Positions 1 through 14,342 of a stretch of DNA of 64,000 nucleotides are shown here, in pieces. Position numbers and translations under genes: made by a program. The notes beneath the pieces are model-generated. The model was not told where the DNA came from and made no database searches. It was given only the letters and a program-made list of their open reading frames with translations. Numbering within the stretch: position 1 is the first letter of the stretch; each line of letters begins with the position of its first letter. This DNA comes from Klebsiella sp. RHBSTW-00484 (GTDB lineage: Bacteria; Pseudomonadota; Gammaproteobacteria; Enterobacterales; Enterobacteriaceae): NCBI RefSeq assembly GCF_013705725.1, contig NZ_CP055481.1, positions 496,001-560,000 on the forward strand. Direction: 5' to 3'.

Positions 1-606
1 GCCGACATCCTGCTGTATCAGACCAATCAGGTTCCGGTCGGTGAAGACCAGAAACAGCATCTGGAGCTGAGCCGCGATATTGCCCAGCGCTTCAACGCTA
101 TTTATGGCGATGTGTTTAAAGTCCCTGAGCCGTTTATTCCGAAATCTGGCGCTCGCGTGATGTCGCTGCTGGAGCCGACCAAAAAGATGTCCAAGTCAGA
201 CGATAACCGTAACAACGTGATCGGCCTGCTGGAAGACCCGAAATCGGTAGTGAAAAAGATCAAACGTGCGGTGACTGATTCCGATGAGCCACCCGTTGTG
301 CGCTACGACATCCAGGACAAAGCGGGTGTTTCCAACCTGTTGGATATCCTCTCTGGCGTAACGGGTCAGAGCATCCCTGAGCTGGAGCAGCACTTTGAAG
401 GCAAAATGTACGGCCACCTGAAAGGCGAAGTCGCCGATGCGGTATCCGGCATGCTAACCGAACTGCAGGAGCGCTATAACCGTTTCCGCGACGATGAAGC
501 TTTCCTGAATCAGGTGATGAAAGAGGGCGCGGAGAAAGCCAGCGCTCGCGCTTCTGTTACGTTGAAGGCGGTCTACGAAGCGATTGGTTTCGTCGCTAAG
601 CCTTAA
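1..606 (+). CDS. trpS: Tryptophan--tRNA ligase, C-terminal part (5' end outside the window)
   Basis: Class I aminoacyl-tRNA synthetase that charges tRNA-Trp with tryptophan in the cytoplasm. The frame is open from base 1, so the gene starts upstream; 201 residues are present of about 334 expected, and roughly the first 133 are missing with the HIGH-type ATP motif. The second class I signature KMSKS is intact at 184-198. The helical C-terminal region follows and the protein ends in AKP, as in E. coli TrpS. In E. coli it is the last gene of the dam-rpe-gph-trpS cluster, next to yhfZ, as here. A strong terminator follows directly. Identity is secure; only the truncation is a limit. Confidence 0.97.
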
Positions 607-632
607 TCTATCTGATGGTTGCCGTCATATCC

Positions 633-662
633 AAAGCCGGGTGCAATGCATCCGGCTTTTTA
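633..662 (+). terminator. Rho-independent terminator after trpS
   Basis: A stem starting AAAGCCGG and closing with CCGGCTTT, about 12 bp including one G-U pair, has a 3-base loop and is followed by a short T run. It separates trpS from the yhf operon. Confidence 0.85.
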
Positions 663-707
663 ATTTGTGATAGCTGTCGTGATTTGATTATTTGCTCCTT
701 GTTAATT

Positions 708-751
708 ATCTTCAGTTTAGTGAAGATATAAATATTCAATTTAGTGAAGAT
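708..751 (+). promoter_or_regulatory. Tandem inverted-repeat operators upstream of yhfZ
   Basis: Two 20 bp dyads lie at 708-727 (ATCTTCA-N6-TGAAGAT, perfect 7 bp arms) and 732-751 (ATATTCA-N6-TGAAGAT, one arm mismatch). Their starts are 24 bp apart, about two helical turns on the same DNA face. The second ends 5 bp before the yhfZ start codon. A third palindrome with the same TTCA-N6-TGAA core lies before yhfX. The inference is autoregulation by YhfZ; binding has not been shown here. Confidence 0.6.
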
Positions 752-756
752 TATAG

Positions 757-1662
757 ATGCGTCGGACATTCATTAAAAAAGAGGGCATGGCACTAACGAC
801 CCTGGCTCGTTATTTGCTGGGCGAGCAGTGCGGTAATCGCCTGAAAACGATTGATGAGTTAGCGGGGGAGTGCGGCTCTTCCGTTGGGCTGACTCAGGCG
901 GCGTTAAAAACGCTGGAGTCTTCCGGGGCCATTCGAATCGAACGCCGCGGGCGCAACGGCAGTTACCTGGTTGAGATGGATAACAAGGCCCTATTGGCGC
1001 ATATCGATATCACCAACGTCGTTTGCGCAATGCCTCTGCCCTATACGCGATTGTATGAGGGGCTGGCGAGCGGGCTGAAAGCGCAGTTTGAAGGTATACC
1101 TTTTTACTATGCGCATATGCGCGGCGCGGACATTCGCGTGGAGTGCTTACTTAACGGTGTTTACGACATGGCGGTGGTTTCGCGCCTGGCGGCAGAAAGT
1201 TATTTAGCTCAGAGCGGGCTGCGGATGGTAATGGCCCTTGGGCCGCACAGCTATGTTGGTGAGCACCAGCTGATTTGCCGGAAAGGCGCAATCGATTCGG
1301 TGCGGCGAGTGGGGCTTGATAACCGCTCGGCGGACCAGAAAATTATGACCGAAATTTATTTTGCCAATAGCGACGTAGAGCGCGTCGACCTCTCTTATCA
1401 CGAGAGTCTAAGTCGCATCGTCAAAGGCGAAATTGACGCTGTTATCTGGAACGTCACCGCTGGCGCGGAGCTGGCCATGTTAGGGCTGGAAGCCCTGCCG
1501 TTAAGTGATGACCCGCGTTTTTTGCAGGCGACTGAGGCGGTAGTGTTGGCCAGGGCAGATGATTACCCGATTCAACATTTGCTACGTGCAGTCGTTGATA
1601 AACAGGCGCTATTAGCTCATCAACAACGGGTGGTGAGCGGAGAGCAAGAGCCAAGCTATTAA
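757..1662 (+). CDS. yhfZ: YhfZ, DNA-binding regulator of the yhf operon (inferred)
   Basis: 301 residues, the same length as E. coli YhfZ. Residues about 15-75 form a winged helix-turn-helix of GntR-like look (TIDELAGECGSS..., then LESSGAIRIERRGRNGSYL, with a basic wing). The remainder resembles a periplasmic-binding-protein-like effector domain, so it is probably a ligand-responsive transcription factor. No strong ribosome-binding site precedes the ATG at 757, and the second upstream palindrome overlaps the place where one would be, which would suit autorepression. An in-frame ATG at 787 has an AAGAGG only 2 bases away, too close. It is the first gene of a co-directional operon. The ligand and physiological role are unknown. 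Confidence 0.85.
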   Translation: MRRTFIKKEGMALTTLARYLLGEQCGNRLKTIDELAGECGSSVGLTQAALKTLESSGAIRIERRGRNGSYLVEMDNKALLAHIDITNVVCAMPLPYTRLYEGLASGLKAQFEGIPFYYAHMRGADIRVECLLNGVYDMAVVSRLAAESYLAQSGLRMVMALGPHSYVGEHQLICRKGAIDSVRRVGLDNRSADQKIMTEIYFANSDVERVDLSYHESLSRIVKGEIDAVIWNVTAGAELAMLGLEALPLSDDPRFLQATEAVVLARADDYPIQHLLRAVVDKQALLAHQQRVVSGEQEPSY

Positions 1663-1678
1663 CATTAAGGCAGTGACT

Positions 1679-2041
1679 ATGGAAAACAGGCTCAACTTGC
1701 TGTGTGAGGCAGGGATTATCGACCAGGATATTTGTCGCGGAATGATGCAGGTCGTCCGCCAGCTGGACGAGCAGTGGCATCTTCCCGTCTTTAGCGAGCA
1801 GGGAGAAATCGCGATAACTCATATGGCAAATGCGCTGATGCGCAGCCGCCGCGGTGAGGTTATTGAGCCGCTGGATGAGGAGTTCATGGCAGAGATAACC
1901 AGTTCGGCTTATTGGGATGAGATTCATCAATTGCATCAGGTGATGATGCAGGAATTTGACGTCACTCTACATGCTAATGAAAAAGGTTATTTGCTGGCTA
2001 ACTGGTATGGGTTGTGGGGAGCGGCGCAGCAGGCCGTGTGA
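1679..2041 (+). CDS. yhfY: YhfY, stand-alone PRD-domain protein
   Basis: A 120-residue protein consisting of one PTS regulation domain (PRD). The signature histidine is His48 in AITHMANALMRSRRG, and the typical C-terminal helix motif GYLLANWYG is present. PRDs are normally phosphorylated by HPr or EIIB proteins and sit inside antiterminators or activators; here there is no DNA- or RNA-binding domain and no PTS gene nearby. ATG at 1679 is chosen over an in-frame GTG at 1673 because AAGG at 1667-1670 is properly spaced only for the ATG, and this matches the E. coli length. It may modulate YhfZ or an operon enzyme by protein contact, which is speculation. Confidence 0.85.
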   Translation: MENRLNLLCEAGIIDQDICRGMMQVVRQLDEQWHLPVFSEQGEIAITHMANALMRSRRGEVIEPLDEEFMAEITSSAYWDEIHQLHQVMMQEFDVTLHANEKGYLLANWYGLWGAAQQAV

Positions 2042-2070
2042 AGAATATTGGGAATTGGCGCTATGCGACT

Positions 2071-2096
2071 TAAATATTCAAAAAAATGAATATTTA
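2071..2096 (+). promoter_or_regulatory. Perfect palindrome between yhfY and yhfX, candidate YhfZ operator
   Basis: Two perfect 10 bp arms, TAAATATTCA and TGAATATTTA, flank six A residues. The TTCA-N6-TGAA core and spacer length match the two palindromes before yhfZ. It lies 28 bp upstream of the yhfX start in an 83 bp gap, the largest inside the operon. It could be an internal operator/promoter region or an mRNA hairpin; no T run follows, so a terminator is less likely. Confidence 0.55.
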
Positions 2097-2124
2097 AAAA
2101 AGGAATAAAAGCAGAGGCAAGTAA

Positions 2125-3288
2125 ATGTTTATTAAAGCATTACAACGGCAGAACCCGGCGCTGATTGCGACGGCGCTCCGCTTCTGGCAGCAAGGGCTTA
2201 TCGCCCCGGATAGCTGGGTTATTGATGTCGATCAGGTGCTGGAAAATGGCAAGCTGCTGCTGAAGACCGCGCAGCAATATGGAATCAGCCTGTACTTGAT
2301 GACCAAGCAGATTGGTCGAAATCCGTGGCTGGCAGAAAAGCTGTTGGCGCTGGGGTATCAGGGCATTGTTGTTGTGGATTACAAAGAGAGTCGGGTGATG
2401 CGCCGGGCCGGCTTGCCCGTTTCCCATCAGGGCCATCTGGTGCAAATCCCTTCCGCGCAGGTAGCGGGTGCGGTAGAGCAGGGTACCGAAGTTATTACCC
2501 TGTTCTCTCTGGAGAAAGCTCGGCAAGTTTCTGCGGCGGCGGTAGCAAGCGGTCGGACGCAGGCGGTCATGCTTAAGGTCTATGGCGAGAGCGATTTCCT
2601 CTATCCGGGACAGGAGAGCGGATTCGCGTTGGCTGAGCTGGACAACGTGGTGGCTCATCTTCGCAGCCTGCCAGGTATTGAACTGACCGGGCTCACCCAC
2701 TTCCCTTGCCTGCTGTGGAATGACGAACAGGAAAAAATTCTGCCAACGCCGAATTTCCGCTCTTTGCTCGCCGCCAGAGACAAGCTCGAAAGTCTCGGCG
2801 TGACGGTTCAGCAACTGAATGCGCCTTCGGCAACCAGCTGCAGCTCTCTGCCGCTACTGGCGGAGTTTGGCGTCACCCACGCTGAGCCGGGGCATGCGCT
2901 GACCGGTACCATCCCCGCCAACCAGCAGGGAGATCAACCGGAGCGTGTTGCCATGCTGTGGCTGAGTGAAATTTCCCACCATTTTGCCGGGCAAAGCTAT
3001 TGCTACGGCGGCGGCTATTATCGGCGTGGTCATGCTAAGCATGCGCTGGTATTCGCTCCGGCCAGCCAAAACGCCCAACTGGCGCAGCTTAACGCGGTAG
3101 ATGACAGCAGCATTGATTACTACCTGCCGCTGGAAGGTGAGTTCCCGATCGGCAGCGCGGCAATCTTCTGTTTCCGCACGCAGATTTTCGTTACCCGTAG
3201 CGACGTGGTGCTGGTTGCGGGTATTCAAAGCGGTAACCCTGAAATCGTTGCCCGCTACGACAGCCTTGGCAACGTACTGGAGGACTAA
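2125..3288 (+). CDS. yhfX: YhfX, PLP-dependent alanine racemase-like protein
   Basis: 387 residues, full length compared with E. coli YhfX. The N-terminal barrel has the look of fold type III PLP enzymes (alanine racemase/D-threonine aldolase-like), with Lys61 in [11 protein letters not shown] as the likely Schiff-base lysine. HFPCLLWN and [10 protein letters not shown], the latter resembling the phosphate-binding and C-terminal loops of that fold, follow. The [14 protein letters not shown] and [11 protein letters not shown] stretches are conserved in the YhfX family. The stop codon overlaps the yhfW start (TAATG), so the two are probably translationally coupled. The substrate is unknown; an amino-acid racemase or aldolase is the family-level expectation. 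Confidence 0.85.
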
Positions 3289-4511
3289 TGGCGCGATTTG
3301 TGGTGTTGGTGATAGATAGCTTTGGCGTCGGCGCGATGGCCGATGTTCCCGAAGTGAGGCCGCAGGATATCGGTGCGAATACCTGTGGACATATCTTGCA
3401 GCGTTTTCCCGCGCTGCGTCTGCCGACGCTAGAAAAACTGGGCCTGATAAACGCCCTCGGTTTTGCTCCTGGTGTGATGCAGCCTTCTGAAGATGCCGTA
3501 TGGGGAACCGCAGAACTTGAGCATGAGGGTGGCGATACCTTTATGGGACATCAGGAGATTTTAGGGACTAAACCCCGGACTCCTCTGCGGATGCCGTTTA
3601 ATGATGTCATCGATAAAGTTGAAGCCGCGCTGCTTGCCGCCGGACATCAAACAGAGCGCCACGGCAAAGGTCCATTTTGGCTATTGGTGGACGGTGCGGT
3701 GGCGGTTGGCGATAACCTCGAAGCCGATCTGGGGCAGGTTTACAACATAACCGGCAATCTGAGTGAAAAAAGCTTTGCTGAGGTGAAGGCCATCGGCCGG
3801 ACGGTACGTGAACAGGCCTCAGTGGGACGCGTTATCGCCTTTGGCGGTCAGCTCACCAGTACGCAGAACATCTTTGATGCTGTGGAAGAAAAAGAGGGCG
3901 GCTATATCGGCATCAACGCGCCGCGCTCGGGAGCCTATAAGCAGGGATTTCAGGTTGTGCATATGGGCTACGGCGTTAACGAGCAGGTGCAGGTTCCTGC
4001 CCAGTTGTTTGCGGTTGACGTACCGACGGTACTCGTTGGCAAGGTCGCTGATATCGTTAGTAATCCCCATGGCATCAGTTGGGAAAATCTGGTCGATAGC
4101 CAGCAGATTATGGAGATCACCCGGGCGGAGTTTAACCGCCGGGAGACGGCATTTATCTGCACCAATATTCAGGAAACCGATCTGGCGGGTCATGCTGAAG
4201 ATGTTGAGCGCTATGTCGACAGACTGAAGCTGGTAGATGAACAACTGGCCCTGCTGATGGCGGATATGCGCCCGGATGATTGTCTGGTGGTGATGGCTGA
4301 CCACGGTAACGATCCGACGATAGGCCATAGCAAACATACGCGTGAGAAGGTGCCTTTGCTGGTGTGGTCACCAGGACAATCCTCTGCGCAGCTCGGGACT
4401 CGGCGCACCTTGTCGGATGTCGGGGCCACCGTTTGCGACTTTTTCGGCGCTCGCGCTCCGGAAAATGGGCGTTCTTTCCTTTCGCTTTTACTGCCCGCAA
4501 GGAATACATAA
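3288..4511 (+). CDS. yhfW: YhfW, phosphopentomutase-like metalloenzyme
   Basis: 407 residues, a member of the alkaline phosphatase superfamily closest to phosphopentomutase (DeoB). The N-terminal metal site is seen in [12 protein letters not shown] (Asp10). Thr84 in [10 protein letters not shown] is in the position of the phosphorylated nucleophile of DeoB. The C-terminal metal-binding run is [21 protein letters not shown]. All key residues of the fold appear present, so it should be active as a phosphomutase or phosphohydrolase. The substrate is unknown. The start overlaps the yhfX stop and the stop overlaps the php start. Confidence 0.87.
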
Positions 4512-9591: not shown

Positions 9592-9653
9592 GACATTACC
9601 TCTTAATTATTGGCAGCAGCCTTAGAATCTGGCTATTAGGCTATCTTATTTGT

Positions 9654-9735
9654 CAGGTTGAACCTGGGCAGTGCTCACAATCCTCACGTACTACGTGTAC
9701 GTTCCGGTTGTTCCGCGCCGTCCGTGTTCAACCTG
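9654..9735. repeat. Large interrupted inverted repeat between nirC and cysG
   Basis: CAGGTTGAAC at 9654-9663 is matched exactly by GTTCAACCTG at 9726-9735, with about 60 bp between them that itself contains short dyads (CACGTACTACGTG). The whole could fold as one long hairpin in the nirC-cysG mRNA. It resembles the dispersed GC-rich intergenic repeats of enterobacteria (Box C-like), but the family is not certain. Confidence 0.45.
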
Positions 9736-9751
9736 TCTGCACCGATTACGC

Positions 9752-10558
9752 CTACTGAGCCAGACTCTCAGTCTCGTTAGTTTTTTCCGGAGCTGGGCGC
9801 TCCGATTTCGGCGTAGCATACCAATAACCCAATCCCATAAATACGACACCGGACAAAGTATTGCCGAGTGTTACCCATAACAGATTGTGACCAATTCCCG
9901 CAAGGGTGTAGGCATCGCTGTGATGACCGAACCAGGAGAGGGCAAACAGCGTCATGTTGGCAACGGAGTGCTCATAGCCGGAAGCGATAAACGCCAGCAG
10001 GCACCACCAGATAGCGATAAATTTTGCTGAGCCTTCAGTACGGATCGCCATCCAGATTGCCAGACATACCAGCCAGTTACACAGCGCGCCTTTGAAAAAC
10101 AGCGCCATCGCAGATTGGCTGGTTTTAGCCAGCGCGACGGTGTGAACGAGGCTGGTATCGACCGGCAGCAGACTGCCGCTACCCCAGCTATACAGCAGCG
10201 CCACGAAAATAGAACCGAGCAGGTTGCCCATCCAGGTTTGCGGCAAAATGGCCCACATCTGCCCCTGGCTGATGGTGCCCGCTTTCACGCCCAGAGTCAG
10301 GAACATGGTGTGGCCGGTAAACAATTCAGAACCGGCGATAATCACCAGGGTTAAGGCGATACCAAAAGTGGCGCCCATCACCAGAGGACGAACAGATGGG
10401 TCGAGCAGATTGCCGAGGGTGAAAATAAGGATGATGCCGAGGCCGACATAAGCGCCTGCCATCATCGAGCTGACCCAGAAACTGAATGGATTATTGGCCG
10501 AGAGGCGTGCAATGCGCGCAGCGTTAGCCGCGCACTTGTTTATAGTGTCCGTAAACAT
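9752..10558 (-). CDS. nirC: Nitrite channel NirC
   Basis: 268 residues, a member of the formate/nitrite transporter family of pentameric inner-membrane channels. Six membrane segments are apparent, beginning near residue 27 (FSFWVSSMMAGAYVGLGIIL) and ending near residue 245, with a charged C-terminal tail. FNT family loops are present (AGSELFTGHTM, around residues 75-85, and the ANMTLFAL region). It moves nitrite across the membrane to the cytoplasmic NirBD reductase. The reading frame is intact, but a mobile element sits 31 bp upstream of its start, between it and nirD, so its native co-transcription with nirBD is interrupted. Confidence 0.95.
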   Translation of the reverse strand: MFTDTINKCAANAARIARLSANNPFSFWVSSMMAGAYVGLGIILIFTLGNLLDPSVRPLVMGATFGIALTLVIIAGSELFTGHTMFLTLGVKAGTISQGQMWAILPQTWMGNLLGSIFVALLYSWGSGSLLPVDTSLVHTVALAKTSQSAMALFFKGALCNWLVCLAIWMAIRTEGSAKFIAIWWCLLAFIASGYEHSVANMTLFALSWFGHHSDAYTLAGIGHNLLWVTLGNTLSGVVFMGLGYWYATPKSERPAPEKTNETESLAQ

Positions 10559-10581: not shown

Positions 10582-10589
10582 AAAAATAA
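10582..10589. repeat. Left copy of the 8 bp target-site duplication
   Basis: AAAAATAA directly abuts the left end of the ISL3-family element and is repeated exactly at its right end (13962-13969). Eight bp is the usual duplication for the ISL3 family. Confidence 0.93.
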
Positions 10590-10613
10590 GGGTAAGCGGA
10601 TTAAATGGTTGAT
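10590..10613 (+). repeat. Left terminal inverted repeat of the ISL3 element
   Basis: 24 bp starting GGGTAAGCGG and ending AATGGTTGAT. It differs from the right end at positions 6, 7 and 14 only. Confidence 0.92.
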
Positions 10614-10676
10614 CTTACCTTTGCATGAGAGTGAGACAGACCGGCATCTCATCGGATTATCTGGTTGATGCTTCAC

Positions 10677-11084
10677 CTACTGCTGGTGCATGTTTCCTTC
10701 GCTAATTCCAGCAAGAACCCCACACGCCTCAACTTCCCGGTCATCGTTGCAACTCGCTCTCAGTGAAACGAGTTGTTTCTCAAGCGCTTGCAGAGCGGTT
10801 ATCTGCGACCGCACATGAGAGATGTGATCATCGAGCAAGGCGTTGACGGCGGTACAAGGCTGATGAGGGTCGTCCTGATAGCTCTGTAGTTCGTGAATCT
10901 CAGCCAGTGACAGGCCCAGGATTCTGCAGCGACGGATGAAGGCCAGCCCCTCACCATGCTTCTCGGTATAGACACGGTAACCGTTGTCCTGCCGATCAGG
11001 CGGCGGCAACAAGCCCTGCTGTTCATAGAAGCGGATCGTCTGTGTTTCGACCCCTACCAACTGCGCCAACTGACCAATGCGCAT
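10677..11084 (-). CDS. cadR: Cd(II)/Pb(II)-responsive MerR-family regulator (CadR/PbrR type)
   Basis: 135 residues. The N-terminal MerR winged helix (MRIGQLAQLVGVETQTIRFYEQQGLL) is followed by a dimerisation coiled coil and a short metal-binding tail. Cys77, Cys112 and Cys121 fit the cysteine set of CadR/PbrR sensors; ZntR in this same window has a different pattern with a CC pair. The ATG at 11084 follows a GGAGG. A TTG 15 bases further upstream would place that Shine-Dalgarno inside the gene and is rejected. It is divergent from the efflux gene it should control. Its transcript runs toward nirC, and no terminator is visible before the element's left end. Confidence 0.88.
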   Translation of the reverse strand: MRIGQLAQLVGVETQTIRFYEQQGLLPPPDRQDNGYRVYTEKHGEGLAFIRRCRILGLSLAEIHELQSYQDDPHQPCTAVNALLDDHISHVRSQITALQALEKQLVSLRASCNDDREVEACGVLAGISEGNMHQQ

Positions 11085-11115
11085 CAGCCTCCTCCCCAAC
11101 GGATTCTTTACTCTA

Positions 11116-11146
11116 TTGACCTTATAGTAGCTTTATAGTTTAAAAT
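11116..11146 (+). promoter_or_regulatory. MerR-type promoter/operator for the efflux gene
   Basis: -35 TTGACC (11116-11121) and -10 TAAAAT (11141-11146) are separated by 19 bp, the over-long spacer typical of promoters that MerR-family activators untwist. An imperfect dyad (TTATAG...TTTATAG) fills the spacer. The regulator gene is divergent and its start lies 32 bp to the left. Confidence 0.75.
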
Positions 11147-11179
11147 GGTACCACAACATTGTTCAAGTGGAGTCGTATC

Positions 11180-12076
11180 ATGAGCAAATCCTGTGGTGGC
11201 GCCTGTGGCGGTGATGCAACGTCCGCAGCGGATACCGATATACAGGCCTCCTCCGAGGCGCCAGGGAGATGGGTCAGTGTTTATGCCGTGCCGAAGATGG
11301 ACTGTCCATCAGAAGAACGAATGATTCGCCTAGCCCTGAACGGCTTTGAGGAGATTCGGGCGCTGTCCTTCGACTTGTCGAACCGCCGGCTGAAGGTCGT
11401 GCATGACGGCGAGGTCGAGCCCGTCACCTCGAAACTGAAGACCTTGGGGCTAGGCGCCTCGCTTCAGGAAACCGTCGCTGCAAATCCGGAGACCATCAAG
11501 GCCGCCGAGTTTTCGGCAGCTTCTGCTAAGCAAGAATCCGGGACCCTGCGCTGGTTGCTCGGCATCAATGCACTTCTGTTCGTGGTGGAAATGACTGCCG
11601 GTCTGATCGCCCGGTCCACCGGCCTGATTGGAGAATCCCTGGACAATTTTGCCGATGCGGCGGTGTACGGGCTTGCCCTTTATGCGGTTGGACATAGCGT
11701 GAAAATGCAGGTACGTGCCGCGCATCTTGCTGGTGTACTGCAACTGATCTTGGCTGTGGGCGTGCTCGTAGAGGTGGTGAGACGCTTTGTATTCGGTAGT
11801 GAGCCTGAATCGCTGGTGATGATGGCTATCGCATTCGTCGCATTGATTGCCAATACCAGTTGTCTGCTGCTCATATCCAAACATCGGGAAGGCGGGGCGC
11901 ACATGAAGGCAAGCTGGATATTCTCGGCCAACGACGTGGTGATCAACCTGGGGGTCATCACCGCCGGCGCCCTGGTCGCGTGGACCGGTTCCAATTATCC
12001 GGATCTGATTATCGGCACCATCGCGGGGGGCATTGTACTTAACGGTGCCAGACGCATTTTGGCGTTGAAGGGTTAA
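11180..12076 (+). CDS. CDF-family heavy-metal efflux transporter with Cys-rich N-terminus
   Basis: 298 residues. The N-terminus is Cys/Gly-rich (SCGGACGG, residues 4-11), followed by a heavy-metal-associated-like domain to about residue 95 (VPKMDCPSEERMIRLALNGF). About six membrane segments follow from residue 115, with the acidic metal-site motifs SLDNFADAAVYG in the second and SANDVVINLG in the fifth, as in cation diffusion facilitators. It should export Cd, Zn, Pb or Co across the inner membrane by proton exchange. ATG at 11180 has GTGGAG 7 bases upstream; a TTG at 11159 does not. It is the second cargo gene of the ISPpu12-type element, often called czcD-like. Confidence 0.85.
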   Translation: MSKSCGGACGGDATSAADTDIQASSEAPGRWVSVYAVPKMDCPSEERMIRLALNGFEEIRALSFDLSNRRLKVVHDGEVEPVTSKLKTLGLGASLQETVAANPETIKAAEFSAASAKQESGTLRWLLGINALLFVVEMTAGLIARSTGLIGESLDNFADAAVYGLALYAVGHSVKMQVRAAHLAGVLQLILAVGVLVEVVRRFVFGSEPESLVMMAIAFVALIANTSCLLLISKHREGGAHMKASWIFSANDVVINLGVITAGALVAWTGSNYPDLIIGTIAGGIVLNGARRILALKG

Positions 12077-12079
12077 ATA

Positions 12080-12592
12080 ATGCTCATTATTGGCAAAAAG
12101 CTCTCGCCGTATGCCCTATTGTCCATATCGGGCCTGCTGGCAGCGTCTGATCAGGCTGTAAAGTGGCTGGTGCAGCAATCAATGGCCTATGGCGAGTATG
12201 TTTCGGTGACCCCGTTCTTTAACTGGGTGCACCTATGGAACACCGGTGCCGCATTCAGTCTTTTTGCGAATGGTGGAGGCTGGCAGCGCTACTTTTTTAT
12301 CGGAATCGCGGTAGTGGTCTCGATTTTTCTGATCAAGCTGATCCTTGAAAATCGTCATAAAGGAGAAGCCATCGCTTACAGTCTTATCCTCGGTGGCGCC
12401 ATGGGCAACCTGATTGACCGGGTCTTTCGCGGCTATGTTGTGGATTCCTTTGATTTCTATTGGCGAGACTGGCATTGGCCGGCCTTCAACCTGGCTGATA
12501 TTGCAATTGTCCTCGGTGCCTTACTTTTCGTTTCCAGCAGCTTGTTGGGTAAAAAAGCAAACACCAATGCCGAGTCGGATGGATCTGACTGA
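12080..12592 (+). CDS. lspA: Lipoprotein signal peptidase II paralogue carried on the element
   Basis: 170 residues, the normal LspA size. Four membrane segments are apparent, together with the family motifs LWNTGAAFS, GGAMGNLIDRV and FNLADIAI. These hold the conserved Asn/Asp residues, including the two catalytic aspartates in NLIDR and NLADI. It removes signal peptides from diacylglyceryl-prolipoproteins and is the globomycin target. It starts 3 bp after the efflux gene, so they are co-transcribed. The host's own lspA should lie elsewhere (ileS-lspA), making this an accessory copy. Why metal-resistance elements carry lspA is not established. Confidence 0.9.
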   Translation: MLIIGKKLSPYALLSISGLLAASDQAVKWLVQQSMAYGEYVSVTPFFNWVHLWNTGAAFSLFANGGGWQRYFFIGIAVVVSIFLIKLILENRHKGEAIAYSLILGGAMGNLIDRVFRGYVVDSFDFYWRDWHWPAFNLADIAIVLGALLFVSSSLLGKKANTNAESDGSD

Positions 12593-12613
12593 CACCTACG
12601 CCTATACAACACC

Positions 12614-13903
12614 ATGACCGAACTTCCCGACAACATCCTTCACCTGCCGCAATACCAAGTACTGGGCTGCAAATCAACCGACGACGAAATGCACTTCCAG
12701 GTGGACGTGCCCGATCCCATCGCCTGCGAGGAATGCGGCGTGCAGGGTGAGTTCGTACGGTTCGGCAAGCGTGACGTTCCCTATCGTGATCTGCCCATCC
12801 ACGGCAAGCGGGTCACTCTCTGGGTGGTCCGCCGCCGATACACCTGCCGGGCCTGCAAGACAACATTCAGGCCCCAGCTACCGGAGATGGTGGACGGATT
12901 CCGTATGACACTGCGGCTGCATGAGTACGTGGAGAAGGAATCCTTCAACCACCCCTACACCTTTGTGGCGGCACAGACCGGCCTGGACGAGAAGACGGTG
13001 CGCGACATCTTCAACGCCCGCGCCGAGTTCCTGGGGCGCTGGCACCGCTTCGAGACGCCCCGCATCCTGGGCATTGACGAGCTATACCTGAACAAGCGCT
13101 ACCGCTGCATTCTGACCAACATTGAGGAGCGAACCCTGCTCGACCTGCTGGCCACCCGCCGCCAGGACGTGGTGACCAACTACCTGATGAAGCTGAAAGA
13201 CCGGCAGAAGGTCGAGATCGTCAGCATGGACATGTGGAACCCCTACCGGGCAGCGGTCAAGGCTGTGCTGCCCCAGGCCCGTATCGTGGTCGATAAGTTC
13301 CATGTGGTGCGCATGGCCAACGATGCCCTAGAGAGAGTGCGCAAGGGCCTCAGAAAGGAGCTGAAACCGTCCCAGAGCCGGACTCTCAAGGGAGACCGGA
13401 AAATCCTGCTGAAACGCGCTCACGAAGTCTCAGACCGGGAGCGCCTCATCATGGAGACCTGGACAGGCGCGTTCCCGCAACTGCTGGCCGCCTACGAGCA
13501 CAAGGAGCGCTTCTACGGCATCTGGGACGCCACCACACGGCTCCAGGCAGAAGCCGCCCTGGACGAGTGGATAGCCACCATCCCGAAGGGCCAAAAGGAA
13601 GTCTGGAGCGATCTGGTCAGGGCAGTGGGAAACTGGCGCGAAGAGACCATGACCTACTTCGAGACGGACATGCCCGTCACCAACGCTTACACGGAGTCCA
13701 TCAACCGACTGGCCAAGGACAAGAACCGTGAAGGGCGCGGTTACTCCTTCGAGGTGATGCGGGCACGAATGCTCTACACCACGAAGCACAAGAAGAAGGC
13801 ACCGACTGCGAAGGTCTCTCCTTTCTACAAGAAAACCATCGGTTACGGACTGCCGGACTTCGCAGAGGAACTCAACTACGGAGTCGATCTATCAACCATC
13901 TGA
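12614..13903 (+). CDS. tnpA: ISL3-family transposase
   Basis: 429 residues. The N-terminal zinc-ribbon-like domain has CEECG and CRACK pairs (residues about 36-80). A helix-turn-helix region follows (around 105-130). The DDE catalytic domain shows Asp in GIDELYLNKRYRC, Asp in IVVDKFHVVRMAND and Glu in TNAYTESINRLAKDKNREG, the last being the strongest ISL3 signature. Frame and catalytic residues are intact. The start is 22 bp after lspA, so the transposase may be transcribed with the metal-inducible cargo genes. The final codons lie about 60 bp from the right end of the element. Confidence 0.95.
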   Translation: MTELPDNILHLPQYQVLGCKSTDDEMHFQVDVPDPIACEECGVQGEFVRFGKRDVPYRDLPIHGKRVTLWVVRRRYTCRACKTTFRPQLPEMVDGFRMTLRLHEYVEKESFNHPYTFVAAQTGLDEKTVRDIFNARAEFLGRWHRFETPRILGIDELYLNKRYRCILTNIEERTLLDLLATRRQDVVTNYLMKLKDRQKVEIVSMDMWNPYRAAVKAVLPQARIVVDKFHVVRMANDALERVRKGLRKELKPSQSRTLKGDRKILLKRAHEVSDRERLIMETWTGAFPQLLAAYEHKERFYGIWDATTRLQAEAALDEWIATIPKGQKEVWSDLVRAVGNWREETMTYFETDMPVTNAYTESINRLAKDKNREGRGYSFEVMRARMLYTTKHKKKAPTAKVSPFYKKTIGYGLPDFAEELNYGVDLSTI

Positions 13904-13916
13904 GGGTGGTATCAGA

Positions 13917-13942
13917 TTGATGGGGTGAAGGTGCCCCATCAA
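13917..13942 (+). terminator. Hairpin after tnpA at the right end of the element
   Basis: TTGATGGGG and CCCCATCAA form a perfect 9 bp stem with an 8-base loop, 14 bp after the transposase stop. It overlaps the inner 5 bases of the right inverted repeat. No clear T run follows, so it may protect the mRNA or block transcription entering from outside rather than terminate strongly. Confidence 0.45.
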
Positions 13943-13961
13943 CCATTAAATCCGTATACCC
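13938..13961 (-). repeat. Right terminal inverted repeat of the ISL3 element
   Basis: 24 bp; read on the minus strand it starts GGGTATACGG and ends AATGGTTGAT. It matches the left end at 21 of 24 positions. Confidence 0.92.
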
Positions 13962-13969
13962 AAAAATAA
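13962..13969. repeat. Right copy of the 8 bp target-site duplication
   Basis: AAAAATAA, identical to 10582-10589. Confidence 0.93.
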
Positions 13970-14015: not shown

Positions 14016-14342
14016 TTAACCGCGTAGCTGCACGACGCCGTCTTTCACTCGGGCTTCATAGTGCGCCACCGAATGGCTTTCATCTTCCAGACACAGGCCA
14101 TCGCGCAGGCGGAAACGCTGCTTTTTCAGCGGGCTGGCAACCCACAGCTCGCCCTGATGCTCGGCAATCAGGCCGCGGGACAGGACGCTGGACTCAAAGA
14201 ACGGGTCGATGTTGCTGATCGCAAAAATCTGGTCGCCGTGATAAGGGCGGAAAATTGCCACTTGTTTATCACCTAACAGCGCGCAGACGCCGGTTTCCGG
14301 CACGATGTCATCGAGTTTGCAGATATTTTTCCACTGGCTCAT
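14016..14342 (-). CDS. nirD: Nitrite reductase (NADH) small subunit NirD
   Basis: 108 residues, the same size as E. coli NirD. It has the Rieske-like beta fold (VCALLGDKQVAIFRPYHGDQIFAISNIDPFFESSVLSRGLIAEHQGELWVASP when read in parts) but lacks the CxH...CxxH cluster ligands, as is usual for enterobacterial NirD. It associates with NirB in the cytoplasm. The start overlaps the nirB stop by 4 bp (ATGA), so the subunits are translationally coupled. Confidence 0.96.
   Translation of the reverse strand: MSQWKNICKLDDIVPETGVCALLGDKQVAIFRPYHGDQIFAISNIDPFFESSVLSRGLIAEHQGELWVASPLKKQRFRLRDGLCLEDESHSVAHYEARVKDGVVQLRG

Follow-up and report, generated by a model that had tools for sequence, protein, structure and literature searches.

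The window, the whole stretch of 64,000 nucleotides of Klebsiella sp. RHBSTW-00484 chromosome that was analysed, carries a complete insertion element in the intergenic space between two minus-strand genes, with its outer ends flanked by the same 8 bp (features below in window coordinates).

9752..10558, minus strand: nirC (name presumed), downstream neighbour, an intact open reading frame
10582..10589, no strand: left copy of the target duplication, AAAAATAA, the same sequence as 13962-13969
10590..13961, plus strand: ISPpu12 / Tn6018, complete, 3,372 bp; 100% identical to plasmid copies annotated ISPpu12, 99.56% to the pWW0 copy
10590..10613, plus strand: left inverted repeat, 24 bp (repeat comparison)
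10677..11084, minus strand: cadR / tnpR, MerR-family regulator (TIGR02047 CadR-PbrR, 206 bits vs. a cut-off of 151)
11116..11146, plus strand: putative MerR-type promoter of transporter-lspA-tnpA, TTGACC-19 bp-TAAAAT, with base 11142 as the variant position
11180..12076, plus strand: cation transporter with a CDF membrane domain (PF01545, 7.6e-14) and a weak HMA domain (PF00403, 2.8e-4, under its cut-off)
12080..12592, plus strand: lspA, lipoprotein signal peptidase (NF011358, 378 bits; PF01252)
12614..13903, plus strand: tnpA, intact ISL3-family transposase (NF033550, 299 bits; PF01610 matched over 1-240 of 240)
13938..13961, minus strand: right inverted repeat, 24 bp (repeat comparison)
13962..13969, no strand: right copy of the target duplication, AAAAATAA
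13988..14006, minus strand: terminator-like hairpin after nirD, 8 pairs (7 G-C) then 7 T (scan; stem core kept in relatives)
14016..14342, minus strand: nirD (name presumed), upstream neighbour, an intact open reading frame

An earlier, sequence-only reading of this DNA had proposed an ISPpu12-type ISL3 element of 3,372 bp with 24 bp ends matching at 21 positions, an exact 8 bp duplication and an intact DDE transposase, and all of this was borne out to the base. The terminal repeats (10590-10613 and 13938-13961) agree at 88% of their 24 nt (21/24), AAAAATAA stands at both 10582-10589 and 13962-13969, and the element between them (10590-13961) is complete, with four open genes that each match their own family. 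TnpA is an ISL3 DDE transposase with a zinc ribbon and an HTH (PF01610, PF14690, PF13542; NF033550 above its cut-off), and it spans the catalytic-domain model PF01610 end to end. The element cannot be a chance arrangement, since the same ends occur in 69 full-length copies (50 with a perfect duplication) and the whole 3,372 bp is found mismatch-free on plasmids.

ISPpu12 of the TOL plasmid pWW0 was reportedly described by Williams et al. in 2002. The pWW0 copy (NC_003350) and the window copy have the same length of 3,372 bp, the same gene order (cadR-cation transporter-lspA-tnpA), the same 21/24 ends and identical TnpA, LspA and transporter proteins, and they differ at 15/3,372 bases (14 in cadR and one in the -10 box). 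Fourteen of these differences fall at element positions 294-370, a 77 bp patch of cadR affecting five residues, and one falls at position 553; the 14-difference patch is common to pWW0 and two P. putida loci (L022 and L055), as if copied from elsewhere. Excerpts of the literature also give the published ISPpu12 ends as matching at 21/24 (PMC3056050) and Tn6018 as the same element renamed (PMC5561048, PMC7760358); as described there, Tn6018 shares the 3,372 bp, the 24 bp repeats, the 8 bp target duplication and the cadR-transporter-lspA-tnpA order, and differs in host and site only. The mercury version, Tn6551, is related to Tn6018 and is likewise described with 24 bp repeats and an 8 bp duplication, but at 6,582 bp it carries mer genes (excerpt of PMC7760358), and ISPst9, also ISL3-like in the descriptions available, is said to transpose by way of a circular intermediate. 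We are all but certain that the element is ISPpu12 (= Tn6018), recently inserted.

The spacing of the genes (3 bp between transporter and lspA, 21 bp between lspA and tnpA) bears on how the transposase is made. Since lspA and tnpA follow so closely, tnpA probably lies at the end of a regulator-controlled transcript and is co-transcribed with the cargo, so that TnpA would be made from the regulator-controlled transporter-lspA-tnpA genes. Such control agrees with a title in the citing literature, which credits TnpR from an ISPpu12 isoform with regulating two ISL3-like elements once conjugative interaction has taken place, and with an excerpt of PMC4133298, in which the regulator gene of ISPpu12a is called tnpR. 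A metal-resistance label for the cargo is unsafe, because, according to the excerpt of PMC4447125, none of the strains tested gained Cd, Co or Zn resistance from the ISPpu12a module.

The element is widespread. At least 80% of it was found in 203/72,556 plasmid records, including full-length copies at 100% identity (among the 40 plasmid matches listed, all were at 100.0% and nearly all were annotated ISPpu12), and in 19/5,426 E. coli genomes. A search with TnpA found a relative encoded in at least 581 genome-contig stretches; the best 80 of these loci are 99-100% identical over the best segment and come from Pseudomonas, Halomonas-type bacteria, Paraburkholderia, Vibrio and others. Excerpts of PMC5034289, PMC9201451 and PMC8239412 already document ISPpu12 in enterobacteria. 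The metal-efflux cargo genes that the sequence-only reading had named are indeed present; its surprise at finding them in a core enterobacterial operon did not stand, as ISPpu12 is already common in enterobacteria, which makes the location unsurprising, and a break in the operon is not established. This is a known broad-host-range element in a new place, and the finding as such is ordinary and of low novelty.

The insertion had also been placed inside nirBDC-cysG. It does lie between the genes that we take to be nirD (14016..14342, named by position and sequence) and nirC (9752..10558), both on the minus strand, with nirD ending at 14016 and nirC starting at 10558; the broken operon did not hold up, since the element is intergenic and sits beyond a terminator-like hairpin. 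The hairpin (GGGAGGCGCAACGCCTCCC then seven T, 14006-13988) stands between nirD and the element, and its stem core is unchanged in 5/7 relatives and altered at a single position in each of the remaining pair. Note that the terminator scan returned 3 sites vs. 3.1 expected in shuffles, so the case for this hairpin, the strongest of the three, rests on its quality and conservation. We consider it probable from these features that the element landed beyond a nirD terminator. It could nevertheless be argued that the insertion silences nirC-cysG and thereby functionally inactivates part of the nitrite/siroheme operon, as nirC-cysG is now parted from nirBD by 3.4 kb. We judge this unlikely: the hairpin kept in relatives already stood between nirD and nirC, transcription of cadR runs towards nirC and could extend into nirC-cysG, and a second full-length cysG homologue is present on the chromosome (G000:C1:1375578-1376942; 50% identical over residues 1-455 of 457). 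Given the terminator-like hairpin and the second cysG homologue, the insertion would do the host little harm. Separately, an intergenic repeat of ~117 bp lies between nirC and cysG (window 9636-9752), with 37 whole or partial matches in the same genome.

The genome of this wastewater Klebsiella holds five full copies of the element, identical at every base, four on the chromosome (C1) and one on C3, an IncFIB/FII plasmid of 115,642 bp. Each chromosomal copy is bounded by a perfect 8 bp duplication (AAAAATAA, AAAAAAAA, TTATTTAG and GAAAAATC, in element orientation). One chromosomal copy breaks an mdtD-like transporter gene; by eye, another falls within a frame resembling that of a CadC-type regulator, and a third within or next to a small HTH frame. 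The plasmid copy has no target duplication at its ends, and therefore it has either been rearranged since arrival or arrived by another route; its flanks are the same in a Raoultella plasmid from Spain, which suggests that the plasmid copy predates the chromosomal ones.

The insertions are absent from the loci compared in other genomes of the genus. We searched 20 genus genomes with the nirC-side flank, of which 8 matched, the strain's own included, leaving the loci of seven relatives. The element was absent from 7/7 of these at the nirD-nirC site; three (L008, L009 and L012) aligned across the joined flanks, and the other four differ in intergenic sequence. At the mdtD-like site, 7/7 relatives' loci aligned through (the best 7 of the 19 relatives matching the flank), and at the CadC-like site 4/6 did. 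None of seven aligned through at the AAAAAAAA site (again the best 7 of 19 relatives matching the flank), as this region is not shared with the relatives. The element was in none of the relatives' loci fetched at the four sites. Only 1/19 other genus genomes gave a long match, namely G005, with the piece 1-3338 on its contig C2; the same piece is followed by an IS1 gene in the Klebsiella huaxiensis plasmid NZ_CP036176.1 (coordinates as in G005 C2). G005, the relative with the highest score, is without any of the insertions at the loci that matched. The earlier expectation of uninterrupted relatives thus proved right, the same insert at the same place was looked for in the seven relatives' loci and not found, and the recent event that had been suggested is supported by identical copies, perfect duplications and empty sites.

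With no insert in the seven relatives' loci, three of them aligning across the empty site, the insertion is recent and came probably from the plasmid. ISPpu12 would have moved by ISL3-type transposition into the gap between nirD and nirC, and likewise into three other places on the chromosome, and five identical copies would fit a conjugative arrival followed by several transpositions. The likely donor is the strain's own IncFIB/FII plasmid, with the direction, from plasmid to chromosome, read from the copies and their flanks. The chromosomal copies might instead have come independently from other donors, such as other plasmids or ICEs; identical copies do exist on many other enterobacterial plasmids, and the resident plasmid copy is without a target duplication. 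This we regard as improbable, as the five copies agree at every base, the rarer promoter allele included (see below), and as G005 is free of insertions at the matching loci and has only a truncated copy on another contig. That the insertion is an assembly artefact of a region made repetitive by five identical copies can be set aside almost entirely, given that every chromosomal copy stands between exactly duplicated 8-mers and that relatives have uninterrupted junctions at 3/4 sites.

The element shows a preference for AT-rich targets. We examined 69 full-length copies, the five of this genome included, and found a perfect 8 bp duplication in 50/69 (the window copy and 49 others); 19/69 were without one, including L036 with a 7 bp match. 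The duplications are 19.75% G+C vs. 53.7% in the flanks (n=50), and 36/50 have only A or T at the four middle positions vs. 3.0 expected. AAAAATAA fits this AT-rich profile, and TnpA would insert the element into AT-rich 8-mers, duplicating them. Targeting of terminators was considered and not adopted: 9/49 sites lie near a terminator-like hairpin vs. 3.25 expected when AT-matched and 1.56 at random (the fiftieth site had flanks too short to be used), a difference that is suggestive only, as the scanner is crude. Open stretches of at least 120 codons hold 36/49 sites vs. 42.1 expected, by a test too crude to rely on, which scores even this intergenic site as open.

The stretch TTGACC-19 bp-TAAAAT between cadR and the transporter gene we take to be a MerR-type promoter, from the layout usual in the MerR family. 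A sigma-70 scan restricted to 16-18 bp spacers found 0 promoter-like sites vs. 2.3 expected; 19 bp spacers fall outside its range. The window copy reads TAAAAT where the nearest of the other copies examined read TTAAAT, a change of the second base of the -10 box (element position 553, window 11142). Plasmid copies from Salmonella (L141) and E. coli (L142) and a chromosomal E. coli copy (L146) differ from the window copy at 1/3,372 bases, with TTAAAT, and L057, aligned over 1-3362, differs only at 553. With a 91-base query, the window form matched 27/243 matching plasmid records at ≥99% and the pWW0 form 202/243, and the window form reached ≥99% in 0/54 matching E. coli records. Over a 33-base stretch in the best 80 loci, the A form was exact in 5, the T form in 60 and neither in 15. 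At E ≤ 1e-100, 3/392 family genomes matched, of which this strain's carries the A allele and the others carry T; the search scored at most two candidates per genome and shows only 2/5 of the strain's copies, which makes its copy counts unusable. In one search of an open-access library, none of the titles and abstract openings listed (10 of 18 papers) dealt with the -10 variant.

A change from TTAAAT to TAAAAT moves the box towards the sigma-70 consensus. The variant could in principle raise expression of transposase and transporter and have helped the element to amplify in this strain, an idea that we hold to be doubtful. Many copies can be present with the T form as well, as in Pseudomonas bharatica CSV86 (T allele; 15 of the best 80 loci), which counts against it. 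The A allele is found on other backgrounds too (Pseudidiomarina, Vibrio, Marinomonas, Methylophaga and Pasteurella), a distribution compatible with a stronger promoter having been selected more than once. Recurrent mutation at this base was considered, as A and T each occur with both forms at 1024 and 1986, and was not retained: all four combinations are also seen at the 1024/1986 pair, so the pattern is equally well accounted for by recombination between copies. Among 64 full-length copies, 5/31 columns vary from -35 to -10 vs. 26/95 in the whole cadR-transporter gap, counts that say little about promoter conservation because the copies are too alike; their choice by TnpA also biases the set towards a conserved-looking tnpA.

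Our searches also brought up related and derived elements. One relative, ~2,985 bp long and bounded by an exactly duplicated 8-mer (L017 883-3867; L018 2256-5240; L048 9487-12471; L053), carries an ArsR-type regulator, an SO_0444-like permease and an ISL3 transposase, with tnpA again close behind the cargo; the last 1.24 kb of its transposase gene is 93-99% that of ISPpu12. L023 (2096-7348) is a version of ISPpu12 with a DsbD-like gene and one further gene between transporter and lspA, and has the exact duplication CCATTAAG. L028 and L070 carry mer genes between two lspA copies, resembling the published Tn6551 (family search on L028 only), L097 (797-7348), which has a candidate left end, shows the same tnpA preceded by a CopA-type ATPase gene and an EmrB-like one, and L096 carries genes that by eye resemble ars genes. 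An internally deleted copy of 1,954 bp (L147, NC_008739.1) is without most of lspA and tnpA and keeps both ends and the exact duplication TAAAGATT; a transposase acting in trans may have moved it, or the deletion may have arisen where the copy now sits. In L138 (NZ_CP119336.1), lnt, a second gene for lipoprotein processing, takes the place of tnpA behind the cadR-transporter-lspA cassette, and two Pasteurella multocida plasmids of 3.4 and 3.7 kb (L135 and L136) carry the promoter and transporter part with no annotated lspA or tnpA.

Taken at this strength, the strain offers a clean case of probable spread from plasmid to chromosome, with one plasmid copy, four exact insertions, empty relatives and an AT-rich profile drawn from 50 targets. 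Should the -10 variant turn out to affect expression, it would give a simple natural means of studying the control of a transposase by a regulator that responds to metal or conjugation.
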